From contig JACOUS010000015.1 of assembly GCA_016177735.1 (NCBI GenBank), positions 1-49,785 of the forward strand: DNA of 49,785 nt. The letters run 5' to 3'. Below are positions 8,945 to 49,655 of the stretch, piece by piece; position 1 is the stretch's first letter; each line of letters starts with the position of its first letter. Below the pieces are notes generated by a model, which ran no database searches, was not told the DNA's origin, and saw nothing but the letters and a program-made list of their open reading frames with translations. Source of the stretch: Ignavibacteriales bacterium (GTDB taxonomy: Bacteria; Bacteroidota; Ignavibacteria; Ignavibacteriales; Melioribacteraceae). A program made the translations under genes and the position numbers.

Positions 8945-9120
8945 CTGTCCCAAACTTTTTTAATATGAATTAAAAACTTGCAAAACAAGTCTTTAGCCAA
9001 ATATTCTATTCTACCGGAAAAATTATATTGCTCAAAATTTTTCTTGCCCGCTTAGGCGGGCTTGCTGTAAGTAAATCCCCTTGACAATTTATCGGAATGC
9101 AGAAGCAAAGTTTGGGGCAG
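8945..9120. repeat. MITE-like element with 14-bp terminal inverted repeats
   Basis: CTGTCCCAAACTTT at 8945-8958 and AAAGTTTGGGGCAG at 9107-9120 are inverted copies matching at 13 of 14 positions, 176 bp apart end to end. Inside is a perfect hairpin, GCCCGC/GCGGGC, at 9046-9061 with loop TTAG. The element fills most of the 303-bp gap between the TPR gene and the galactokinase-like gene and has no reading frame. Only one copy is visible here, so repeat status in the genome is inferred. Confidence 0.5.
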
Positions 9121-12495: not shown

Positions 12496-12592
12496 GAACC
12501 GTCGATTTGCTGATTATCCCGACAAGCCGGGACTGCTCTACTCCGTTAAAGCCGGACAAGCAACCGAGCAGAGTTTATCCCGCGAAGCGGGA
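12496..12592 (-). pseudogene. tRNA-like relic interrupted by small palindromes
   Basis: On the plus strand, GAACCGTCGATTTGCTGATTA at 12496-12516 parallels the T-arm/variable/anticodon side of the neighbouring tRNA-Thr. The similarity is then broken by the palindrome TCCCGACAAGCCGGGA (12517-12532). It resumes as CTGCTCTAC (12533-12541), is broken by TCCGTTAAAGCCGGACAAG (12542-12560), and resumes as CAACCGAGC (12561-12569). A third palindrome, TCCCGCgaaGCGGGA, lies at 12578-12592. The simplest reading is a partial duplicate of a tRNA that received palindrome insertions. It cannot fold into a working tRNA. Chance similarity is possible because the matching blocks are short. Confidence 0.45.
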
Positions 12593-13951: not shown

Positions 13952-16819
13952 TTATTTCAGTAATATCATTTTGCGTACCGCTGAATAATTACCTGTAGTT
14001 AATTTGTAAAAATAAATTCCGCTTGACAATTCTGCATTCCCGCCTTGGCGGGCAAGCTGCGTTCCGAATTCTACGTTATACTGTCCAGCTTGCTGATATT
14101 CATTGACAAGTGTTGCAACTTCTCTGCCGAGAATATCATAAACTTTCAGAGTTGTGTAACCTGATAGTGGCAAAGTGAAACTAATTGTCGTTGTTGGATT
14201 AAACGGATTCGGATAATTCTGTGAAAGTGAAAATTCGGTCGGTAGATTTTCTTCATCTTCGATGTCTGAAATAATTTCTTTTCCGTTTTCCGGGGTTGGT
14301 AATTTCACTGTTGTATAAATTCTGAATTCACCGGGCTGTAAATTAATTTGATCGCCGGCATTTACGACATTCAAACTATCGCCCGTGAAGTAATCGTACC
14401 ACATGCCCGTATTTTGGAAAGACGGATTCATACTTCCGGCTGTTACACCAAAATTCCCGATGATGTTCACATTCATTGAGCTGTGATTAATGCTGATCCG
14501 TTTGAAAGTAGAAGCTACATTCATGGAGAAATCAGAGCTTGAAAAAGCTTCATAGTTTGTTTTTAATTTTATGAGCTCCGAATAAACTTTGAATAATTTT
14601 TGTCTTTCCGATTGCGGAGAGTTTGTGTAGTAATCCCAGCGGATCGGTTTTTCGCCTACACGCCCGTTGTAATCAATCGAATAATCGTAGCCAAGTTCTC
14701 CGAACTGCCAGATCATTTTTGGTCCGGGCACGGTTATAAAAAATGCGGCGGCAAGTTTTATTCTGCTTAATGCGTAGTTAGTTTTTCTGATGTCGTACTC
14801 ACCGCTTGAATTTCCGTATTTCAGATTTTTGTACATCAATCTTTCCTCATCGTGGCTTTCCATGTACCCGACAAGATGCGGCTTCGTCCATGTTCTATTT
14901 TTATAAGATATATTGCTGAAGTTTGATGTGCTGACCCATCCCATCGCTGCTTCGTTGTAATTGTAATTCAAGTTTCCCCAAAGCATCGCACCGTAATCGG
15001 AAAGAATTTTTTCTTCGTAATTATCGGCAAAGTGTTCGAGAATTACATACGCGGTTGAATCGACTTCCCAAATTTTATCAGCCATTCTTTTTAAGATTGT
15101 AATCCGCGATGCATCGTACGCACTGCCGTCACCGGATTTGTTCGTAAATCCTTTTGTGAAATCAAAACGGAAGCCGTCAAATTTAAATTCTGTTAACCAG
15201 TAAGAAGTAACGCGGTCAACAAAATATTTAGTTGCACTGCTTTCATGATTGAAATCGTTTCCCCACGAAAAAACCGGGTTTGGTGAAACTTGATTGAACC
15301 ACGGATTACCAGCCGAAGGTCTGTTGTTTGTTTCGTCCCAGTACATTCGCACCATTGGATTCGAACCGTATGCATGATTCAAAACTATATCCATTATTAC
15401 TGCGATTCCGTTTTCATGGCAAGCATCAATGAATGCTTTTAACGAATCGCGGTGACCGTAATATTTATCAACGGCAAAGTACATCATTGGATTGTAACCC
15501 CAGCTGCTGTTACCTTCGAACTCGCTTGCCGGCATTAATTCAATTGCATTGATACCGAGTTTCTTGAAATAACTTAATGTGTCTTTGAGTGTTTTGAAAT
15601 TATGAGTGGAAATAAAATCTCTCACAAGCAATTCATAGATAACAAGTTTTTCTTTTGACGGTTTTTGAAAATTATTTACATGCCATTGGTAAGTGGGGAG
15701 CAAATTTTCAAAATATGTAACTATGTTTTCTGTTTTACCGGTTGGATAGGAGGGTAAACCCGGATATGTTGAAGAAGTTATGTAGCCGTCATTCCACGGG
15801 TCAAGTATTGTTTCTGAGTAAGGATCTGGGATTCTAATTTTGCCGTCAACAAGGTATTGGTATTTATAACTGTATCCCATAGGATCGGTGTGTGTTATGG
15901 GCGGTTGAATCCAAAAGATTACACTATCGGGAGTAATTTCATATCGATTCATAAAATAATTTGTATCGACTTTCCAATCGTTAATATCATTGAGCATGTA
16001 AACAAATTCTTTCTTCGGTGCGTAAAGAGCAAATATATCCGAATCTTTGTTGATTCCGATTTTTGCACCTTGTGGCAGCGGCAAATTTTTTACTGCCGGG
16101 TTTTTCATAATTACAAATGTTGTGGAATCAATTCCGCTCGATTCGCCGTCTGCAATAATTTTTACATCATGTCTTCCGGTTGAATATTCATCGGCAATGA
16201 ATTTGTAAGTTATTGAATCGTTATTGACTTGTTCTTTCTTTTCGTTATCAACATAAAGATAAATCCAGTTTGTTTTTCCTCCGACAGTTACAGACGAAAC
16301 AGAAATATTTAATGTATCACCGCTATTAGCAAATACGGGCGAACGCATCGGATCATCGAACTTAACTTCAACATCCGGTTCGTTAATTACAATATTAATT
16401 CCATGTTCATAAAGTTGAATAAAAATATCTTCTGTTTGTTTTGAGCCGTCCGAACTGCGTAGAACAAAACTGAGTTCCGTGATTTTCTCGCTTGATGATG
16501 CGCCGTAATAAGTTCTCGGATTATCGATAACAAGTTGATAAATATTTGTTCCGGTTCGTGTCAATTTTGGCTGTGCAGAATTATTTCCCCAGCTTCCAAT
16601 TACGTGCTGCCATCTGCCGGCTGCGGTAGTAACTCCGGTGTGTGCATAAACATCGCCCGTGTATCCGGCAATTTTATTCGCATGTGTCGCATATGTTACG
16701 TCAAATGTTAAAACGATGTTGTCGGTTTCTATCGGGTACGTTGGAGCAGTTGTAACAACAGTCTGCGCAAATGAAAACGAAGAAATAAAAAACAGAATAA
16801 GAATAGTTTTGAAATTCAT
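13952..16819 (-). CDS. Secreted GH13 alpha-amylase-family glycosidase with type IX sorting domain
   Basis: 955 residues. A signal peptide spans about 1-18 (ILFFISSFSFAQ). Beta-rich N-terminal modules follow (about 20-245), then a CBM48-like segment (IFALYAPKKEFVYMLNDINDW near 262-282) and a GH13 barrel from about 390. The four GH13 regions are intact: DIVLNH 477-482, GFRFDF with nucleophile D553, ILEH with acid/base E595 and ESHD with D657. The last 75 residues are a T9SS type A sorting domain (SQNYPNPFNPTTT...LKVYDILGREVATL). It probably cleaves alpha-glucans at the cell surface or outside. The sorting domain carries an unusual insert encoded by a palindrome (14039-14052). It follows a TonB receptor gene by 50 bp, probably in one operon. 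Confidence 0.93.
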   Translation of the reverse strand: MNFKTILILFFISSFSFAQTVVTTAPTYPIETDNIVLTFDVTYATHANKIAGYTGDVYAHTGVTTAAGRWQHVIGSWGNNSAQPKLTRTGTNIYQLVIDNPRTYYGASSSEKITELSFVLRSSDGSKQTEDIFIQLYEHGINIVINEPDVEVKFDDPMRSPVFANSGDTLNISVSSVTVGGKTNWIYLYVDNEKKEQVNNDSITYKFIADEYSTGRHDVKIIADGESSGIDSTTFVIMKNPAVKNLPLPQGAKIGINKDSDIFALYAPKKEFVYMLNDINDWKVDTNYFMNRYEITPDSVIFWIQPPITHTDPMGYSYKYQYLVDGKIRIPDPYSETILDPWNDGYITSSTYPGLPSYPTGKTENIVTYFENLLPTYQWHVNNFQKPSKEKLVIYELLVRDFISTHNFKTLKDTLSYFKKLGINAIELMPASEFEGNSSWGYNPMMYFAVDKYYGHRDSLKAFIDACHENGIAVIMDIVLNHAYGSNPMVRMYWDETNNRPSAGNPWFNQVSPNPVFSWGNDFNHESSATKYFVDRVTSYWLTEFKFDGFRFDFTKGFTNKSGDGSAYDASRITILKRMADKIWEVDSTAYVILEHFADNYEEKILSDYGAMLWGNLNYNYNEAAMGWVSTSNFSNISYKNRTWTKPHLVGYMESHDEERLMYKNLKYGNSSGEYDIRKTNYALSRIKLAAAFFITVPGPKMIWQFGELGYDYSIDYNGRVGEKPIRWDYYTNSPQSERQKLFKVYSELIKLKTNYEAFSSSDFSMNVASTFKRISINHSSMNVNIIGNFGVTAGSMNPSFQNTGMWYDYFTGDSLNVVNAGDQINLQPGEFRIYTTVKLPTPENGKEIISDIEDEENLPTEFSLSQNYPNPFNPTTTISFTLPLSGYTTLKVYDILGREVATLVNEYQQAGQYNVEFGTQLARQGGNAELSSGIYFYKLTTGNYSAVRKMILLK
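14039..14052. repeat. Palindrome inserted in frame in the amylase sorting domain
   Basis: CCCGCC (14039-14044) and GGCGGG (14047-14052) form a perfect hairpin with a 2-nt loop inside the coding sequence. It encodes part of the peptide GTQLARQGGNAE, which sits between VEF and LSSGIYFYKL. In ordinary Ignavibacteria sorting domains this linker is only about four residues (FDASN-type). The palindrome resembles the intergenic GCCCGC/GCGGGC hairpin at 9046. Confidence 0.7.
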
Positions 16820-20113: not shown

Positions 20114-21595
20114 TCATTTGGTGAGGATCATTTTTTTAGAAAGAGAAAACACCCCGATAATTAATTGATAAAAATAGATTCCACTTTGTAGGGTGAAACG
20201 CCGATTCGCCCCTACATCAAATTTCACAGAGTATTCTCCCGGCGGCTGGTATTTGTTCACAAGTGTTGCGATTTCTCTGCCGAGGATATCATACACTTTT
20301 AAGGTAATATGTTGTAGTGACGGGATATATCCCATCTCTACGTTGGGAATAACATATTCAATAGTTGTTGATGGATTGAACGGGTTTGGATAATTCTGTT
20401 TCAGATCAAAAATTTTTGGCAATGTTAAACTGCCTACACGAGTTGGTGTGCCTCTAAATTTATAAAGCTTGCCGGTTGAATAATCTGCGAAATACAATTC
20501 ATTGTTTTGATCAATCCCGAAAGTAGATATTTGATGCGATGAAGAGATGACTAAACTATTCTGTACTTTTGAACCGTCGTATTCGAGTGCCCAAATATTT
20601 CCGCTGCCGAAATCACCATAAACATATTTCCCGTAAATTTCTTTTGCACTTTTACCGCGGTACACAAACCCGCCGGTTATTGAAAAACCACCTTCGGAGT
20701 TATGTCCGTATTCCCAAATCGGTAAAGTTAAATTTGTTGTGTTGCATCCGGCTGGGGGATTGTAACAATGATTTCCCTCCATGATTCTCCATCCGTAGTT
20801 TTTTCCTTTTTCGATGATATCAATTTCCTCCCATTCGTTTTGCCCGACATCTGCCGCCCAAATTCTGTTTGTTGGTAAATCGAAACTGAAGCGCCAAACG
20901 TTTCGTAATCCCCATGCAAAAATTTCTTCTTTTAATTCGTTTGTGTTTCCTTTGAAGGGATTGTCATTCGGTATTGCATAATTTTTTCCGGCAGAAGTAT
21001 TGTTGACATCGATACGTAAAATTTTGCCGAGCAATGATTTCAAATTTTGCGCATTGTTTTGAGGATCACCGCCGGAGCCGCCGTCTCCAAATGAAATGTA
21101 GAGATAACCGTCCGGTCCAAATAATATTTGTCCGCCGTTATGATTTGTGTACGGCTGATCAACTTCCAAAATAATCAGTTCGCTGCTGCTGTCTGTTTTA
21201 TCAGGATCATTCGAAGAAACTTTGAACCGTGATACGATTGTTCTTCGCGGATTATCGGTTGTATAGTTCACATAAAAATATCCGTTGTTTTTATAATCGG
21301 AATGAAAGGCGAGACCGAGCAAACCTTGTTCGCCTCCGAAGAGGACTTTGTTTTTTATATCGAGAAAAATTTTTTTTGATGAAGTGTTTGGATCATTATT
21401 AAAAACATAGATTGTTCCCGGTTGTGAAAGAACAAACAATCTGTTGGTTCCATCCGGCGGATGTTGAATATCTGTGGGTTGCTCGAATGATAAGTTTGGA
21501 AACGCCGGCTGAATACTGACGAGTTGAGCTTGTGTTGATTTGCACCCTATTAGTATTGGAATTGATACGATGACTTTTAAAATGAATTTTTTCAT
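20114..21595 (-). CDS. PQQ-type aldose sugar dehydrogenase with type IX sorting domain
   Basis: 493 residues from the ATG at 21595 (MKKFILKVIVSIPILIGCKS); the frame is open nine codons further upstream. The body is a six-bladed soluble glucose/sorbosone dehydrogenase. FEQPTDIQHPPDGTNRLFVL, GEQGLLGLAFHSDY, the active-site HNGGQILFGPDG and WGLRNVWRFSFD are typical, and AADVGQNEWEEID and GKNYGWRIMEG follow. It would oxidise aldose sugars with PQQ in the periplasm or outside. The last about 85 residues are a T9SS sorting domain carrying two palindrome-encoded inserts (20187-20216 and 20314-20341). The N-terminus also has a lipobox (LIGC), which is unexpected for a T9SS cargo. Confidence 0.88.
   Translation of the reverse strand: MKKFILKVIVSIPILIGCKSTQAQLVSIQPAFPNLSFEQPTDIQHPPDGTNRLFVLSQPGTIYVFNNDPNTSSKKIFLDIKNKVLFGGEQGLLGLAFHSDYKNNGYFYVNYTTDNPRRTIVSRFKVSSNDPDKTDSSSELIILEVDQPYTNHNGGQILFGPDGYLYISFGDGGSGGDPQNNAQNLKSLLGKILRIDVNNTSAGKNYAIPNDNPFKGNTNELKEEIFAWGLRNVWRFSFDLPTNRIWAADVGQNEWEEIDIIEKGKNYGWRIMEGNHCYNPPAGCNTTNLTLPIWEYGHNSEGGFSITGGFVYRGKSAKEIYGKYVYGDFGSGNIWALEYDGSKVQNSLVISSSHQISTFGIDQNNELYFADYSTGKLYKFRGTPTRVGSLTLPKIFDLKQNYPNPFNPSTTIEYVIPNVEMGYIPSLQHITLKVYDILGREIATLVNKYQPPGEYSVKFDVGANRRFTLQSGIYFYQLIIGVFSLSKKMILTK
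20187..20216. repeat. Palindrome inserted in frame in the sugar dehydrogenase sorting domain (1)
   Basis: TGTAGGG (20187-20193) and CCCTACA (20210-20216) form an inverted repeat extended by GTGAA/TTCGC. It encodes part of DVGANRRFT between VKF and LQSGIYFYQL. This is the same linker position that is interrupted in the amylase at 14039. The word GTAGGGGCGAA..TTCGCCCCTAC is a familiar intergenic repeat type in bacteria. Confidence 0.7.
20314..20341. repeat. Palindrome inserted in frame in the sugar dehydrogenase sorting domain (2)
   Basis: GTAGTGACGGGATA (20314-20327) and TATCCCATCTCTAC (20328-20341) are abutting inverted copies pairing at 12 of 14 positions. On the coding strand they give the extra residues VEMGYIPSLQH between IPN and ITLKVYDILG, where the usual domain has a short turn. 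The GTAGAGA/TCTCTAC ends resemble the hairpin at 22895. Confidence 0.65.
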
Positions 21596-22378: not shown

Positions 22379-22887
22379 TGAAAAAAAATGTATCACTCTC
22401 ATTCATGGTTTTATTTTTATTGCTGATTAATCTAACGGCTGCTGAACCAAAACAAAACGATAAAATCTCTGTTGAAAAAATTGACAAAGCAAAACTTTCC
22501 AAACTGATAAAGGAGCGGAAAGGAAAACCGTTGTTCCTAAATTTGTGGGCAACTTGGTGTGTTCCGTGCCGCGAAGAATTTCCTTCGATTGTTAAACTTA
22601 CCACCGAATACAAAGATGTAGATTTTATTGGAATCAGTGTTGATTTCCCCGAAGAAGTCGAATCTAAAATTATTCCGTTCCTGAAATCGAACGAAGCCAA
22701 TTTTGTTTCGTACGTTAACGGCTTTGAAGGCGATGAAGAGCTGATCAATCTGCTCGATAAAAATTGGAACGGTGCACTACCGGCAACTTTTATATTCGAT
22801 AAGAATGGAAAGAAAATTTCTTTCCTCGAAGGAAAAAAATCTTATGAAGAGTTTAAGAAGGAAATTCTAAAGGTAAAAGAGAAATAA
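22378..22887 (+). CDS. TlpA/ResA-like thiol-disulfide oxidoreductase
   Basis: 169 residues. A signal peptide (SFMVLFLLLINLTAAEP) precedes a thioredoxin fold with the redox motif CVPC in LWATWCVPCREEFPSI near 57-72, ISVDFPEE, the cis-Pro region ALPATFIFDKNGK, and a C-terminal helix. Such proteins reduce or oxidise periplasmic thiols, for instance in cytochrome c maturation. It is the second gene of a coupled pair and a likely partner of the upstream redoxin. Confidence 0.9.
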   Translation: MKKNVSLSFMVLFLLLINLTAAEPKQNDKISVEKIDKAKLSKLIKERKGKPLFLNLWATWCVPCREEFPSIVKLTTEYKDVDFIGISVDFPEEVESKIIPFLKSNEANFVSYVNGFEGDEELINLLDKNWNGALPATFIFDKNGKKISFLEGKKSYEEFKKEILKVKEK

Positions 22888-22894
22888 ATTTGTA

Positions 22895-22918
22895 GAGACG
22901 GCTCCGCAGAGCCGTCTC
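22895..22918 (+). terminator. Hairpin terminator after the thioredoxin pair
   Basis: GAGACGGCTC (22895-22904) and GAGCCGTCTC (22909-22918) make a perfect 10-bp stem with a CGCA loop, eight bases after the stop. The following T-tract is weak (GCTGTCC), so it may act as a hairpin repeat as well as a terminator. Confidence 0.7.
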
Positions 22919-23026
22919 GCTGTCCACTTAATTTTTCTTCATAACAATCCAACGTAAATGCCAAGGTGTTTATTTGCTGTACTTATTCTGTTATATTTAT
23001 CGGTAGTATTAAAAAGGATAAATAAA

Positions 23027-23564: not shown

Positions 23565-24374
23565 ATGAAAATACCCCGATTAAAACTTGGACGAAGATTA
23601 ACCTCAGGCGATTATATTTATAATTTTTTCGCCACTATTACCGGGTTGACAATTTTTAACATACAATTTTTTAAGCAAGCTTTTGTTCCTCCGTATGAAA
23701 TTGGTGAAATAAAAAAACATATGGATGAACTCGGTGTTAAAACTTTTGGTATTGTCAGCGTAACCGGATTTATAATAGGCTTGGTACTTGCAATGCAAAG
23801 CCAGCCGGTACTTGCTCGTTTCGGCGCTTCGGATTTTTTGCCCGGCATGGTTGCTCTTTCTGTTGTCCGCGAATTAGGTCCCGTTATTACTGCTCTTATT
23901 TTTGCCGGTCGTGTAAGTTCTGGCATCGGCGCTGAGCTTGGCTCGATGCGTGTAACCGAACAAATTGATGCGATGGAAGTTTCTGCAGTTAATCCTTTCA
24001 AGTACCTTGTTGTTACGCGTGTAATTGCAACTACAATGATACTGCCCGTTCTTTCTGTTTATGTTATTATAATAGCTATTCTCGGTGGTTATCTTGCAGT
24101 TATTATTACCGAGAGTATGAACTTTACTTATTATGTTGATGCCGTACTTCGTTCAATCGAGTTCGGAGATTTTATCCCCGGCGTTGCAAAAACTTTTGTG
24201 TTTGGTTATCTCGTTGGTATTGTTGGAAGCTACAAGGGCTTTACTGCAGAAGGCGGAACCGAAGGTGTGGGACGCGCTTCAACAACTTCCGTTGTTCTCT
24301 CTTCTTTACTGATTTTAATTTTTGATATGATTTTGGTAAAACTTTCATTATGGTTATGGCCGACTCTCGAGTAG
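23565..24374 (+). CDS. mlaE: MlaE-type ABC transporter permease
   Basis: 269 residues from the ATG at 23565 (the frame is open to 23523). Integral membrane permease of the MlaE/YrbE family that moves phospholipids or other lipids across the inner membrane. The family block is complete: LSVVRELGPVITALIFAGRV, then GAELGSMRVTEQIDAMEVSA, then the late motif YKGFTAEGGTEGVGRAST. Five or so hydrophobic segments are visible. It is the first gene of an MlaE-MlaF-MlaD operon, with mlaF overlapping its 3' end. Confidence 0.92.
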   Translation: MKIPRLKLGRRLTSGDYIYNFFATITGLTIFNIQFFKQAFVPPYEIGEIKKHMDELGVKTFGIVSVTGFIIGLVLAMQSQPVLARFGASDFLPGMVALSVVRELGPVITALIFAGRVSSGIGAELGSMRVTEQIDAMEVSAVNPFKYLVVTRVIATTMILPVLSVYVIIIAILGGYLAVIITESMNFTYYVDAVLRSIEFGDFIPGVAKTFVFGYLVGIVGSYKGFTAEGGTEGVGRASTTSVVLSSLLILIFDMILVKLSLWLWPTLE

Positions 24375-26323: not shown

Positions 26324-29107
26324 ATGACGAAGAATAATAAATCCATAACCGATCATAAAATTATTGTAAAAGGCGCGCGCCAGCACAACCTAAAAAATAT
26401 TTCGATTGAAATTCCGCGGAACAAACTTGTTGTCTTTACCGGTGTAAGCGGCAGCGGAAAATCATCGCTCGTGTTTGATACAATCTATGCAGAAGGACAG
26501 CGGCGCTACGTAGAAAGTTTGTCTTCGTACGCACGCCAATTTCTTGAACGGATGAACAAACCGGAAGTTGATTTCATTTACGGAATTTCTCCGGCTGTTG
26601 CTATTGAACAAAAAACCGGCGCGCGTAATCCGCGCTCTACTGTTGGCACAAGTACCGAGATTTATGATTTCCTCCGATTGTTGTTTGCGAGAATAGGAAA
26701 AACAATCTGTTTCAACTGCGGTAATGTTGTTAAAAAAGATACTGTCGGAACAATTTCTGAATGGCTCGAAACTCAAAACGAAGAGAATAAATTTTATCTC
26801 GGTTTCCCGATTCACTCTCACGAAGGAAGAGCAATCGAAGAAGAACTCGATCTCCTGAAAAAGAAAGGTTTCTTCCGTGTCTTTATCAAAAATGAATTGG
26901 TTGATCTTAACATTGCATTTCAGCAATCGGGCATGCCGAAATCGAAAAAAGATTTATTTGTTGTGCTCGACCGTTTCAAAATAAAAAAGGGAAAAGTTAG
27001 AGAAACGCTTGCCGATTCAATCGAAGCCGCATTTAAGGAAGGCGAAGGACGTTTAACAATTATCAATGCCGATACGAATGAGATAAAACATTTTACAAAA
27101 TTTTATGAATGCTGCGGCATCCGTTACGAAGAACCCGAACCGAGATTTTTCTCTTTCAATAATCCATTCGGTGCGTGCCCCGTTTGTCAGGGCTTCGGAA
27201 AAACTATGGGATACGAAATGGATCTCATCGTTCCGAATCCGAACTTAAGTTTGAGCGAAGGTGCAATTGCACCGTGGCGCACTGCAAAGTACAGCAAGTA
27301 CATGCGCGATCTCGTCAAATTCAACAACGGCAGAATTCCTCTCAACATTCCTTTTGCGGAATTAACTCAAGAACAAGTTTCATTAATTGAAAGAGGCTTC
27401 GACGGATTTGACGGCATTGACGGTTTCTTCAAACATCTTGAAAGCAAAACTTATAAAATGCACATCAGAATTCTGTTGAGTAAATACCGCGGTTACACTA
27501 CTTGTTCTGCTTGCAGAGGTTCTCGTTTGAGAAGAGAATCTCTTCAAGTTAAGATTGCAGAGAAATCGATTCACGATATCGTGAGTATGTCGATTGAACG
27601 CGTACTGGAATTTTTTAAATCAATAAAATTTTCCGAATATGAAAAGGCAATCGGGCAAAGAATTTATGATGAGATTGTAAAACGGTTGATCTTTTTGAAT
27701 GATGTTGGACTTGGATATTTAACACTCGACCGATTGAGCAGTACATTATCGGGAGGCGAAACGCAGAGAATAAATCTTGCAACATCGCTCGGCTCTGCCT
27801 TGATGGGGACGTTGTATGTACTCGATGAACCGAGTATTGGATTGCATCCGCGCGATAATGCACGGCTGATAAAAATTTTGAAGTCGCTTCGTAATTTGGG
27901 AAACACTGTGCTTGTTGTTGAGCACGATCCTGAAATGATGCACGAAGCAGATTTGATTTTTGATATGGGACCGCGAGCCGGAATTCACGGAGGTGAAATT
28001 ATTGCGCACGGAACCGTTAATGAAATTTTGAAAAACGATAAGTCTCTCACCGGAAAATATTTATCGGGCAAATTAAAAATTCCTATTCCCGAAGTTCGCA
28101 ACACAAAGAAAACAGAGACGATAAAAATAGTCGGTGCACGCGAGAACAATCTTAAAAATGTTACGATAGAATTTCCTCTGCGGAAATTTGTTGTGGTAAC
28201 CGGCGTAAGCGGTTCGGGAAAGAGTACACTCGTCCACGATATCTTATACGGCGGACTCGTTAAACTGCACGGCGGTAATCCGCCGAAACTCGGCAAGTTC
28301 GATGCAATCGAAGGCGCGAGGTATATCGATGAAATAGAAATTGTGGATCAATCGCCGATAGGAAAAACACCTCGCTCTAATCCGATAAGTTATGTTAAAG
28401 GTTACGAATTAATCCGCGAATTATACGCTGCAACGCCGCAAGCACGGGCGCGCGGCTACAAGCCCGGCTATTTTTCGTTCAACGTTCCCGGCGGCAGATG
28501 CGATACTTGCGAAGGCGAAGGCTTCGTAAAAATTGAAATGCAGTTTCTTGCCGATCTTTATCTTGAATGCGATGATTGCAAAAGTACACGTTTCAAAAAA
28601 GAAGTGAGAGAGATAACTTACAAAGGAAAAAATATCGTTGATGTTTTGAACATGACCGTTGACGAAGCGCTCGAGTTCTTTGTTAATCATGATAAAATTT
28701 CTTCGATACTGAAAGTTCTGTCGGATGTCGGACTCGGTTACATAAAACTCGGACAGCCGTCAACAACACTTTCGGGCGGTGAAGCTCAGCGTGTTAAGCT
28801 TGCTTATAATTTATCACAGCAGAAAAAAAATCAGCACACACTTTTTATTTTTGATGAACCGACAACCGGTCTGCACTTTGATGATATCGGAAAATTGTTG
28901 AAATGTTTTCAAATGCTGATCGCAAATAGAAATTCTGTCGTGATAATCGAACACAATCTTGATATTATAAAATGTGCGGATTATGTGATCGATCTCGGTC
29001 CCGAAGCCGGGGAACGAGGCGGAGAAGTTGTTTCAGTTGGAACACCGGAAGAAATTGTGAAGAATGAAAAATCCTACACCGGGAAGTTTTTGAAAAGTTA
29101 CCTGTAA
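26324..29107 (+). CDS. uvrA: UvrABC excinuclease subunit A
   Basis: 927 residues. Damage-recognition ATPase of nucleotide excision repair. Two ABC modules are seen: Walker [10 protein letters not shown] at 40-48 and [10 protein letters not shown] near 627, with signatures LSGGETQR near 475 and LSGGEAQR near 816. [19 protein letters not shown] and [17 protein letters not shown] are hallmark blocks. The second zinc finger is intact (CDTCEGEG...CDDCKSTR). In the first, the usual CxxC before FSFNNP is reduced to an adjacent CC ([11 protein letters not shown]), in line with the loss of this site in Bacteroidota UvrA. Monocistronic. Confidence 0.97.
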
Positions 29108-29402: not shown

Positions 29403-29438
29403 ATTCTTCGTCCTCGACTGAAGTCGAGGACGAAGAAT
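29403..29438 (+). promoter_or_regulatory. Perfect 17-bp hairpin in the 5' leader of the EVE gene
   Basis: Arms at 29403-29419 and 29422-29438 are exact inverted copies with a 2-nt (GA) turn; the apex reads TCGACTgaAGTCGA. It ends just before the ribosome binding site (AAAGGGGAGGG) of the gene at 29456. If transcribed, it would form a very stable stem next to the start codon, so a role in translation or mRNA stability is possible. It may instead be a palindromic repeat copy. Confidence 0.6.
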
Positions 29439-29455
29439 TTAAAGGGGAGGGAGTA

Positions 29456-29932
29456 ATGCCGAAAAAACACTGGCTTGTAAAATCAGAAGCGAATTGTTTT
29501 CCAATTGGCGCACTGGCGAAATGTAAAAACCAAACAACACATTGGGACGGTGTGCGCAATTATCAAGCACGTAATTACATGCGCGATGAAATGAAACTCG
29601 GCGACAAAGTTATTTTTTATCACAGTAATGGGGAACAGCCGTGTGCCGCCGGCATCTGCGAAGTTGTGAAGGAAGGTTATCCCGATTTTACCGCGTTGGA
29701 TCCCGAAGAGATGCATTACGATCCCAAAAGCAAAGAAGATTCTCCTACATGGATAATGGTTGATATTAAACTTGTGAAGAAATTTAAAAGAGAAGTAACA
29801 CTCGCAGAAATTAAAGAGAACGGAAAACTTCAGAAAATGAAATTGGTGCAGAAGGCAAACCGCTTATCGGTTATGCCGGTTACAAAAGAAGAGTTCGATG
29901 AAATTGTAAGATTGGGAAATCTTTCGAAATAA
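29456..29932 (+). CDS. EVE-domain protein
   Basis: 158 residues filling one EVE (PUA-like) domain: KHWLVKSEANCFPIGAL at the start, WDGVRNYQARNYMRDEM near 30-46, GDKVIFYHSN near 50-59, and the C-terminal LSVMPVTKEEFDEIVRLG. EVE domains bind modified bases in RNA or DNA, and related proteins occur in RNA modification and restriction contexts. It has a strong ribosome binding site (GGGGAGGG) and a large hairpin in its leader. No adjacent restriction genes; the partner is unknown. Confidence 0.92.
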   Translation: MPKKHWLVKSEANCFPIGALAKCKNQTTHWDGVRNYQARNYMRDEMKLGDKVIFYHSNGEQPCAAGICEVVKEGYPDFTALDPEEMHYDPKSKEDSPTWIMVDIKLVKKFKREVTLAEIKENGKLQKMKLVQKANRLSVMPVTKEEFDEIVRLGNLSK

Positions 29933-44617: not shown

Positions 44618-44669
44618 AACGGCGTGTTATCCCGATAAGTCGGGACAAGTTGTTAAAGATCAACGCGCC
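44618..44669. repeat. Repeat/hairpin at the left boundary of the restriction-modification module
   Basis: A 28-nt word at 44618-44645 (AACGGCGTGTTATCCCG then ATAAGTCGGGA) recurs at 49617-49644 with a single mismatch, in the same orientation. Here it forms a bipartite hairpin: outer arms GGCGTGTT (44621-44628) and AACGCGCC (44662-44669), inner arms TCCCGA and TCGGGA. The preceding GGCTAAC and the G-C-rich arms recall integron attC sites, but no GTTRRRY partner box is found. Confidence 0.65.
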
Positions 44670-44718: not shown

Positions 44719-44805
44719 TCCCGTTTACTTTACGGGATTAATTATTTCTTTCTCTACATCAGAAGAAGTTATAACAACCTCCCGCAAAGCGGGACAAGTT
44801 GTTAT
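44719..44805. repeat. Two further palindromes downstream of the helicase gene
   Basis: TCCCGT (44719-44724) / ACGGGA (44732-44737) is the first. The second is bipartite: outer ATAACAAC (44771-44778) and GTTGTTAT (44798-44805), inner TCCCGC (44780-44785) and GCGGGA (44789-44794). Both lie in the 286-bp gap between higA and the end of the helicase gene, which has no gene. The second could act as a terminator for either side. Confidence 0.65.
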
Positions 44806-49616: not shown

Positions 49617-49655
49617 AACGACGTGTTATCCCGATAAGTCGGGATGTAGCGTCCT
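49617..49655. repeat. Repeat at the right boundary of the restriction-modification module
   Basis: AACGACGTGTTATCCCG followed by ATAAGTCGGGA (49617-49644) repeats the 28-nt word at 44618-44645 with one mismatch. It contains TCCCGA/TCGGGA and is flanked by a weak outer GACG/CGTC pair. It lies 49 bp upstream of the first methylase gene. Confidence 0.65.

Follow-up and report, generated by a model that had tools for sequence, protein, structure and literature searches.

Rickettsia palindromic elements (RPEs) are described in a review of MITEs (PMC10969869) as palindromic DNA of about 150 bp that lies in frame in protein genes and adds a peptide to the product. Repetitive extragenic palindromes (REPs) with a GTAG or CGTC tag are short, and intragenic REPs occur in varied genes, many of them for DNA synthesis and repair, according to Di Nocera (2013; PMC3733652). 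REPINs, short palindromes associated with REP-associated tyrosine transposases (RAYTs), appear as inverted doublets in extragenic space in PMC3116915, and RepRanger (PMC12306157) deals mainly with extragenic repeats. In this work we analyzed a 14-bp hairpin, CCCGCC TT GGCGGG, found in frame in the C-terminal type IX secretion system (T9SS) sorting domain of an alpha-amylase-like secreted protein from an Ignavibacteriales bacterium. The window, i.e., the whole stretch of DNA that was analyzed (49,785 nt, JACOUS010000015.1), corresponds to contig C17 of a genome (G000) that comprises 3.87 Mb in 44 contigs; G001 is the genome of a sister species. Cyanobacterial small dispersed repeats are also very small and presumably mobile; to our knowledge they have no T9SS link, and they are set beside the hairpin by description only.

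Our preferred interpretation, to which we give a probability of roughly 0.7, is that we are dealing with a non-autonomous palindromic element of very small size, whose GC-rich 14-bp hairpin lies at or beside CTTG/CAAG, with each insertion adding 18 bp in frame, and that the T9SS copies then spread by gene conversion. Compared by description, the hairpin resembles RPEs in being found in frame in unrelated genes (T9SS domains, an ATP-grasp protein, RNase HIII, and a PAS kinase that has no ortholog for comparison), but the element is 18 bp against about 150 bp for RPEs and has CTTG direct repeats at its non-T9SS sites. An RPE-like behavior, not an RPE-like size, is supported by this comparison; the resemblance to RPEs proposed in the original prediction holds for the in-frame copies in three unrelated genes and fails for the length. 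Like the GTAG/CGTC REPs and REPtrons, the palindromes of this genome are short and some are intragenic, and one of them flanks a RAYT gene; unlike those REPs, they concentrate in three loops of one secretion domain. With REPINs, the hairpin shares the short palindrome, but it is single and mostly in genes. Among the papers listed by our literature searches on T9SS and palindromes, which were Flavobacterium/Prevotella genome papers and one on Porphyromonas gingivalis, none concerned palindromes inserted into T9SS domains or such domains as landing sites.

The Insert in the Amylase Sorting Domain

The hairpin (CCCGCCTTGGCGGG) is located at exactly 14039-14052, inside the Por_Secre_tail domain of the amylase, and both its position and the family assignment agree with what had been predicted: the domain belongs to the T9SS sorting domain family by its TIGR04183 and PF18962 scores (Table 1). 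Among named sequences, the amylase is most closely matched by records with the labels Ignavibacteria, Melioribacter, and Ignavibacteriaceae, which probably places the genome in or near Ignavibacteriales. Alignment with T9SS domains of the same genome revealed an empty site in a paralogous domain, #62 (G000:C14:20568). This domain reads GTAGAGTTCAGAATGCAG/AATGCAGAATTGTCG, and the window reads GTAGAATTCGGAACGCAG/CTTGCCCGCCAAGGCGGG/AATGCAGAATTGTCA, so that the junction ...CAG/AATGCAG... of domain #62 is split by the insert in the window. The insert in the amylase domain is therefore 18 bp, or six codons encoding LARQGG. The original prediction had taken the whole 12-residue peptide to be extra; the insertion is real, but only the middle six codons belong to it, and the surrounding GTQ...NAE is an extension that occurs in similar form without the hairpin.

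Table 1. Positions of the amylase gene, its insert, and related palindromes in the window.
Feature	Position	Strand	Evidence or remark
Alpha-amylase-like secreted protein, 955 aa, with C-terminal T9SS sorting domain	13952..16819	-	Open reading frame; PF00128 E 4.4e-20, PF18962 E 5e-9
Por_Secre_tail / T9SS sorting domain with insert	13964..14215	-	TIGR04183 47.4 bits (cut-off 23); AlphaFold2 mean pLDDT 87.6
14-bp hairpin CCCGCC TT GGCGGG	14039..14052	.	Sequence; 11 genome copies, control 0
18-bp in-frame insert CTTGCCCGCCAAGGCGGG, encoding LARQGG	14039..14056	-	Empty site in paralogous domain #62
Codons of 12-residue peptide GTQLARQGGNAE (site B loop)	14030..14065	-	Hairpin insert is the middle six codons only
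Element variant CTTG-CCCGCTTAGGCGGG-CTTG	9043..9064	.	Intergenic (genes' ends 8835 and 9139); 4-bp direct repeat
GTAG-type palindrome, two arm changes, site A (VEMGYIPSL)	20314..20341	-	T9SS domain of second secreted protein (gene 20114-21595)
GTAGGGGCGAATC-type palindrome, decayed, site B (VGANRRFTL)	20188..20215	-	T9SS domain of gene 20114-21595

LARQGG is missing in all 19 amylase loci from other genomes (20 loci were read), several of which have other inserts at loop sites A or B. The amylase ortholog of the sister species has STNNNLQL at the insert position, with 80% identity in the body of the protein and 70% in the sorting domain. Since this sorting domain differs elsewhere too, the pair proves little alone and gives no clean empty-site test.

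Copies of the Hairpin and Empty Sites in Relatives

A search with CCCGCCNNGGCGGG found 11 exact copies in the G000 genome, compared to 0 for the reversed-pattern control and 0.0075 expected by chance at the base composition of the window. Six copies are at the same place in six T9SS domains (rows 23, 41, 78, 80, 81, and 89 of the domain list), and three add six codons in frame to unrelated genes, which encode an ATP-grasp protein resembling D-Ala-D-Ala ligase, an RNase HIII that scores over the TIGR00716 cut-off, and a PAS histidine kinase. The two remaining copies (L006 and L009, the latter terminator-like) lie outside any frame of at least 60 codons, which leaves 9 of the 11 within genes. 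The hairpin is in frame in four kinds of gene, and in all four it starts at codon position 2. In the sister species, one domain (G001:C172:13270) encodes LARQGG with one arm base changed.

The ATP-grasp insert LARHGG is missing in 15/15 relatives aligned (the first 16 of 20 matching sequences were used, the protein's own sequence among them), and the RNase HIII insert ARRGGQ is missing in 10/10. For both, conservation of the flanking sequences is good among the closest relatives and declines with distance. The presence/absence pattern between orthologs by which the predicted insertion could be judged is thus seen in two genes, but not in the amylase pair itself, which differs across the whole domain.

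At the DNA level, the three non-T9SS coding sites read CTTG-hairpin-CTTG or CAAG-hairpin-CAAG. The empty ATP-grasp site of G001 is GAC-CTTG-AATTT with a single CTTG, and the empty RNase HIII site of G003 is GAA-CAAG-CT. Together with the intergenic variant in the window (Table 1), direct repeats are found at three coding sites and one intergenic site. Among 57 distinct hairpin contexts whose sequence was examined, four have a 4-bp direct repeat, CTTG/CAAG in every case, and five have an inverted 4-bp repeat; the binomial chance of the direct-repeat excess is 8e-5 at 1/256, a value that ignores base composition and shared descent. On the preferred interpretation, the hairpin would land at or beside a CTTG/CAAG tetranucleotide and leave a second copy of it. 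The reading frame would be kept because the 14-bp hairpin and 4 bp make 18 bp, and each insertion would add six codons of the form [L]ARxGG[Q] with no frameshift. The hairpin may move as single-stranded DNA with the help of a trans-acting enzyme, or a hairpin-primed replication error may be responsible.

Several observations weigh against this interpretation. In the T9SS copies, including that of the window, CTTG is confined to the left side (5/6; CCTG in the sixth), with AATG, AGTG, AACG, or AGTT as the right flank; a target duplication is therefore not evident at these copies. The presence/absence test covers two genes, ATP-grasp and RNase HIII; no ortholog of the PAS kinase was found, its PAS part having no match at E <= 1e-20 in the other 23 genomes, and the empty RNase HIII site of G001 has CAGG where CAAG is expected. 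With genes packed as densely as here, random insertion would be expected to put about as many copies in genes as the 9/11 observed; the assembly consists of 44 contigs; and no enzyme is tied to the CCCGCC hairpin: no exact copy was found in the four Y1 transposase loci of the genome (3.2-3.3 kb each, checked directly). The initial palindrome scan beside the Y1 genes required arms of at least 8 bp and was blind to a hairpin with 6-bp arms.

Generic matches to CCCGCCNNGGCGGG are present in 22 of 58 genomes, G000 included. Those in relatives were rejected as the same element, since 13 form one cluster in G035 and four are in tRNA-like repeats of G009. The G035 cluster (G035:C1:2997911-3000158) has its 13 copies in 2.3 kb, many spaced near 86 and 140 bp. 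The four G009 copies (L019 2005-2562, G009:C1) are in 136-bp steps between tRNA-Val and tRNA-Leu genes, and ARAGORN calls no gene at these repeats. Elsewhere, the linker of a protein of the sister species that looks like a type I restriction specificity subunit contains a CCCGCC hairpin in frame (L013 2004, G001:C143; HsdS-like, named by eye), surrounded by AGAATGC-like repeats that are also seen at T9SS site B, and another is in frame in T9SS loop A (TLPRHGGQAK) in another genus (L016 1997, G003:C5). The window has further short GC hairpins of the form CCCG...CGGG at 12518-12531, 12579-12592, 44631-44645, 44781-44794, and 49630-49645, most of them preceded by TTAT; these are probably more small palindrome families.

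Probable Spread Among T9SS Domains by Gene Conversion

The six T9SS copies are probably one insertion spread by gene conversion, as judged from the sequences of the domains. Six independent insertions at this site are not needed and were rejected, since the shared flanks and the conversion tracts indicate copying. In the half with the hairpin, which runs from the linker to the end, domains #78 and #81 show identities of 99 and 96%, against 66% in the part before the linker. The pairs #60/#66 and #24/#39 have domains that are 99% identical, with 60 and 63% identity upstream; they are without the insert, and conversion is therefore not special to palindromes. One old insertion would in this way have been copied among paralogous domains.

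G000 and G001 have 47 reciprocal-best pairs, of which 29 passed the filters. Where at least one of the two domains carries an insert (12 pairs), conservation of the domain falls below that of the protein body by a mean of 17.5 points, against -2.0 points for 13 canonical and -1.5 for four non-canonical pairs (p 1.2e-4); these loop-length classes were chosen after the result of a total-length classification had been seen, which itself gave 12.4 vs 1.0 points (n=13 and 16, p 0.007). The gap could be widened further if insert-bearing domains drift faster. One pair has a clean site C insertion (A54 IRVYSPGRAGNFTETKKM vs B5 IKAGTYTETKKM).

Other Palindrome Families in the Sorting-Domain Loops

The genome has 112 Por_Secre_tail matches, 101 of them marked over cut-off. 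Among the 87 domains with clear landmarks, loop A is 19 residues long in 67 and 27 residues in 12, and loops B and C are likewise stepped in length; many of the long loops are palindromes at the DNA level. The signatures counted here were composed after the sequences had been read. The site A type, GTAGAGACG-GGATATATCC-CGTCTCTAC, encodes VETGYIPSL and its signature is in 15/112 rows. Site B has two types, GCGCAGATT-TCC-AATCTGCGC encoding AQISNLR (8/112) and the GTAGGGGCGAATC-type encoding VGANRRF (4/112), and site C has GATTCTTC...CAGAATT (9/112) and CTCGCC-GGGCGAG (6/112). The CCCGCC hairpin is found in 9/112 rows, six exact and three (rows 82, 100, and 101) nested in GTAG-type palindromes at site A.

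Inverted-repeat arms of at least 10 bp are present in 10 of 95 G000 domains, compared to a mean of 0.1 in ten synonymous resamplings, and in 15 of 94 G001 domains compared to 0.2. Of the ten in G000, nine represent a single site A element with the core GGATATATCC, and the tenth is located elsewhere. The excess is smaller for 7-bp arms (28 vs 14.8, maximum 21, in G000; 28 vs 14.6, maximum 23, in G001). These numbers count every copy separately, even where copies share descent, and do not include the window hairpin with its 6-bp arms.

These data bear on whether the insert is simply linker-length drift in a fast-evolving domain together with a chance palindrome. The domain is indeed divergent, with loops that vary in many genera. 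The stepped loop lengths, the long-arm excess in both genomes, and 11 hairpin copies against 0.008 expected make this very improbable: the chance palindrome was rejected by copy number, reversed control, and resampling excess, and the repeats in unrelated genes already contradict drift. A linker varying smoothly in length with no repeat copies elsewhere, which would have spoken against the original prediction, is not what is seen.

In the 164 genomes of the order, a pattern of GTAG palindrome plus VTLK-like codons is found at 14 places in 4 genomes, with six different cores, and a site B pattern at 6 places in 5 genomes. Judged by the motifs in their translations, all 20 places encode T9SS domains, an outcome that is a check and not independent proof since the patterns were designed to find such domains. 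For either pattern, at least 159 of the 164 genomes have no match, so the exact form is not common. G000 itself has 17 GTAG-type palindromes, 9 of them in T9SS domains; seven of the other eight were examined and none is in a frame of at least 150 codons (longest 143).

Related palindromes were also seen outside or at the edge of intact domains. At 22895-22919 in the window, between a frame that ends at 22887 and one that begins at 23565, there is a GTAGAGACG-type palindrome of the site A kind with the core GCTCCGCAGAGC. A 37-bp palindrome, ATTCTTCGTCCTCGACTGAAGTCGAGGACGAAGAATT, is at 29403-29439 between frames ending at 29107 and starting at 29456, and its arms resemble the T9SS site C insert (GATTCTTCGTC...). 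At L168 1501 (G002:C73) a T9SS domain, read by eye, is seemingly cut off just past the site B palindrome. In Ignavibacteriales SURF_24, the sorting domains of two neighboring genes (L177 522-863 and 3466-3780) both have GTAG-type site A inserts with different cores, VETSYMTSL and VETRHSAAGGSSLQQ; one of the two domains is apparently that of the amylase ortholog.

RAYT and Y1 Transposase Genes

Four Y1 transposase genes are present in G000, one of which NCBIfam classifies as a RAYT (NF047646, 98.6 bits against a cut-off of 80). This gene has GCGCAGATT palindromes on both sides, the same as in the site B AQISNLR insert, and the upstream one reads GTAGCGCAGATT with GTAG before it. The sequence GCAGATTNNNAATCTGC of the AQISNLR palindrome has 14 genomic copies, some in no long frame. 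By its place beside the RAYT gene and its extragenic copies, this palindrome behaves as a GTAG-tagged REP. In G001 a similar RAYT-like gene is located between two copies of the same core palindrome, there preceded by GTAA. A second Y1 gene of G000, an IS200/IS605 transposase, has a GGGGCGAATC palindrome upstream, a weaker link.

It could be argued from these genes that the CCCGCC hairpin is itself a REP-type element mobilized by a RAYT or other Y1 (HUH) transposase of this genome, as other sorting-domain palindromes may be. The flanked RAYT genes of G000 and G001, the three more Y1 genes, and the nesting of the hairpin in GTAG-type palindromes all point in this direction. We nevertheless regard this explanation as rather unlikely, because the hairpin is shorter than REPs, its commonest flank is CTTG/CAAG rather than GTAG or CGTC, it is mostly in genes where REPs are mostly extragenic, and it is missing from the four Y1 loci; as an ordinary REP it was rejected, since tag and location do not fit. 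Furthermore, simple IS200/IS605 insertion is not known to make a target duplication.

Another explanation dispenses with transposition: template switching or hairpin-primed copying at replication would create the palindromes on the spot, and gene conversion would spread them. Palindrome cores that vary while the arms stay, and the clear conversion tracts, are consistent with this, but local copying leaves unexplained the identical 14-bp sequence in unrelated genes with CTTG on both sides. The copies of the AQISNLR repeat outside genes and beside the RAYT gene also speak against it. We therefore judge it improbable as well, and retain the interpretation of a small mobile element followed by conversion.

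Predicted Structure of the Insertion Site

The AlphaFold2 model of the amylase domain (27 domains as input) is an Ig-like sandwich with a mean predicted local distance difference test score (pLDDT) of 87.6. Strands 57-63 and 79-87 enclose LARQGG (model residues 67-72), part of which forms a short helix; the pLDDT in this region is about 75. In the model of the second window domain (mean pLDDT 81.9), the site A and B inserts are between strands at residues 30-40 and 74-84, the site B insert between strands 66-73 and 85-93. Structural matches include PorU residues 959-1157 (Z 9.3), PorZ (8.3), a NucA-bound T9SS complex chain (8.0), and the mirolase C-terminal domain (7.9), interspersed with other Ig-like folds at similar Z. 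Foldseek gave 0 matches at E <= 0.001 for the modelled domain, and a PDB sequence search with the sorting domain gave no match at E <= 1. An insert in the T9SS domain may survive because its site is a loop of an Ig-like domain, and the same loops have also taken in several other palindrome families, one of them RAYT-linked.

Implications

Rickettsia is the main group from which selfish palindromes lying in frame are known. If our interpretation is true, a group outside Rickettsia has an 18-bp frame-keeping element, and one domain is a landing site for several palindrome families. A broader view, which we advance tentatively and rate somewhat below an even chance, is that few mobile DNA units are smaller than this hairpin, which with its 14 bp leaves 18 bp through CTTG duplication and settles in genes without frameshift. 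On this view the T9SS domains of Ignavibacteriales serve as a reservoir: their three exposed loops capture such elements together with RAYT-driven REPs, and gene conversion shuffles them among dozens of secreted proteins. The entry and persistence of REPs and RPEs in genes would then be directly testable, with sister-species empty sites and a RAYT gene at hand. The finding would also bear on the way in which the numerous T9SS cargo tags within one cell diversify.

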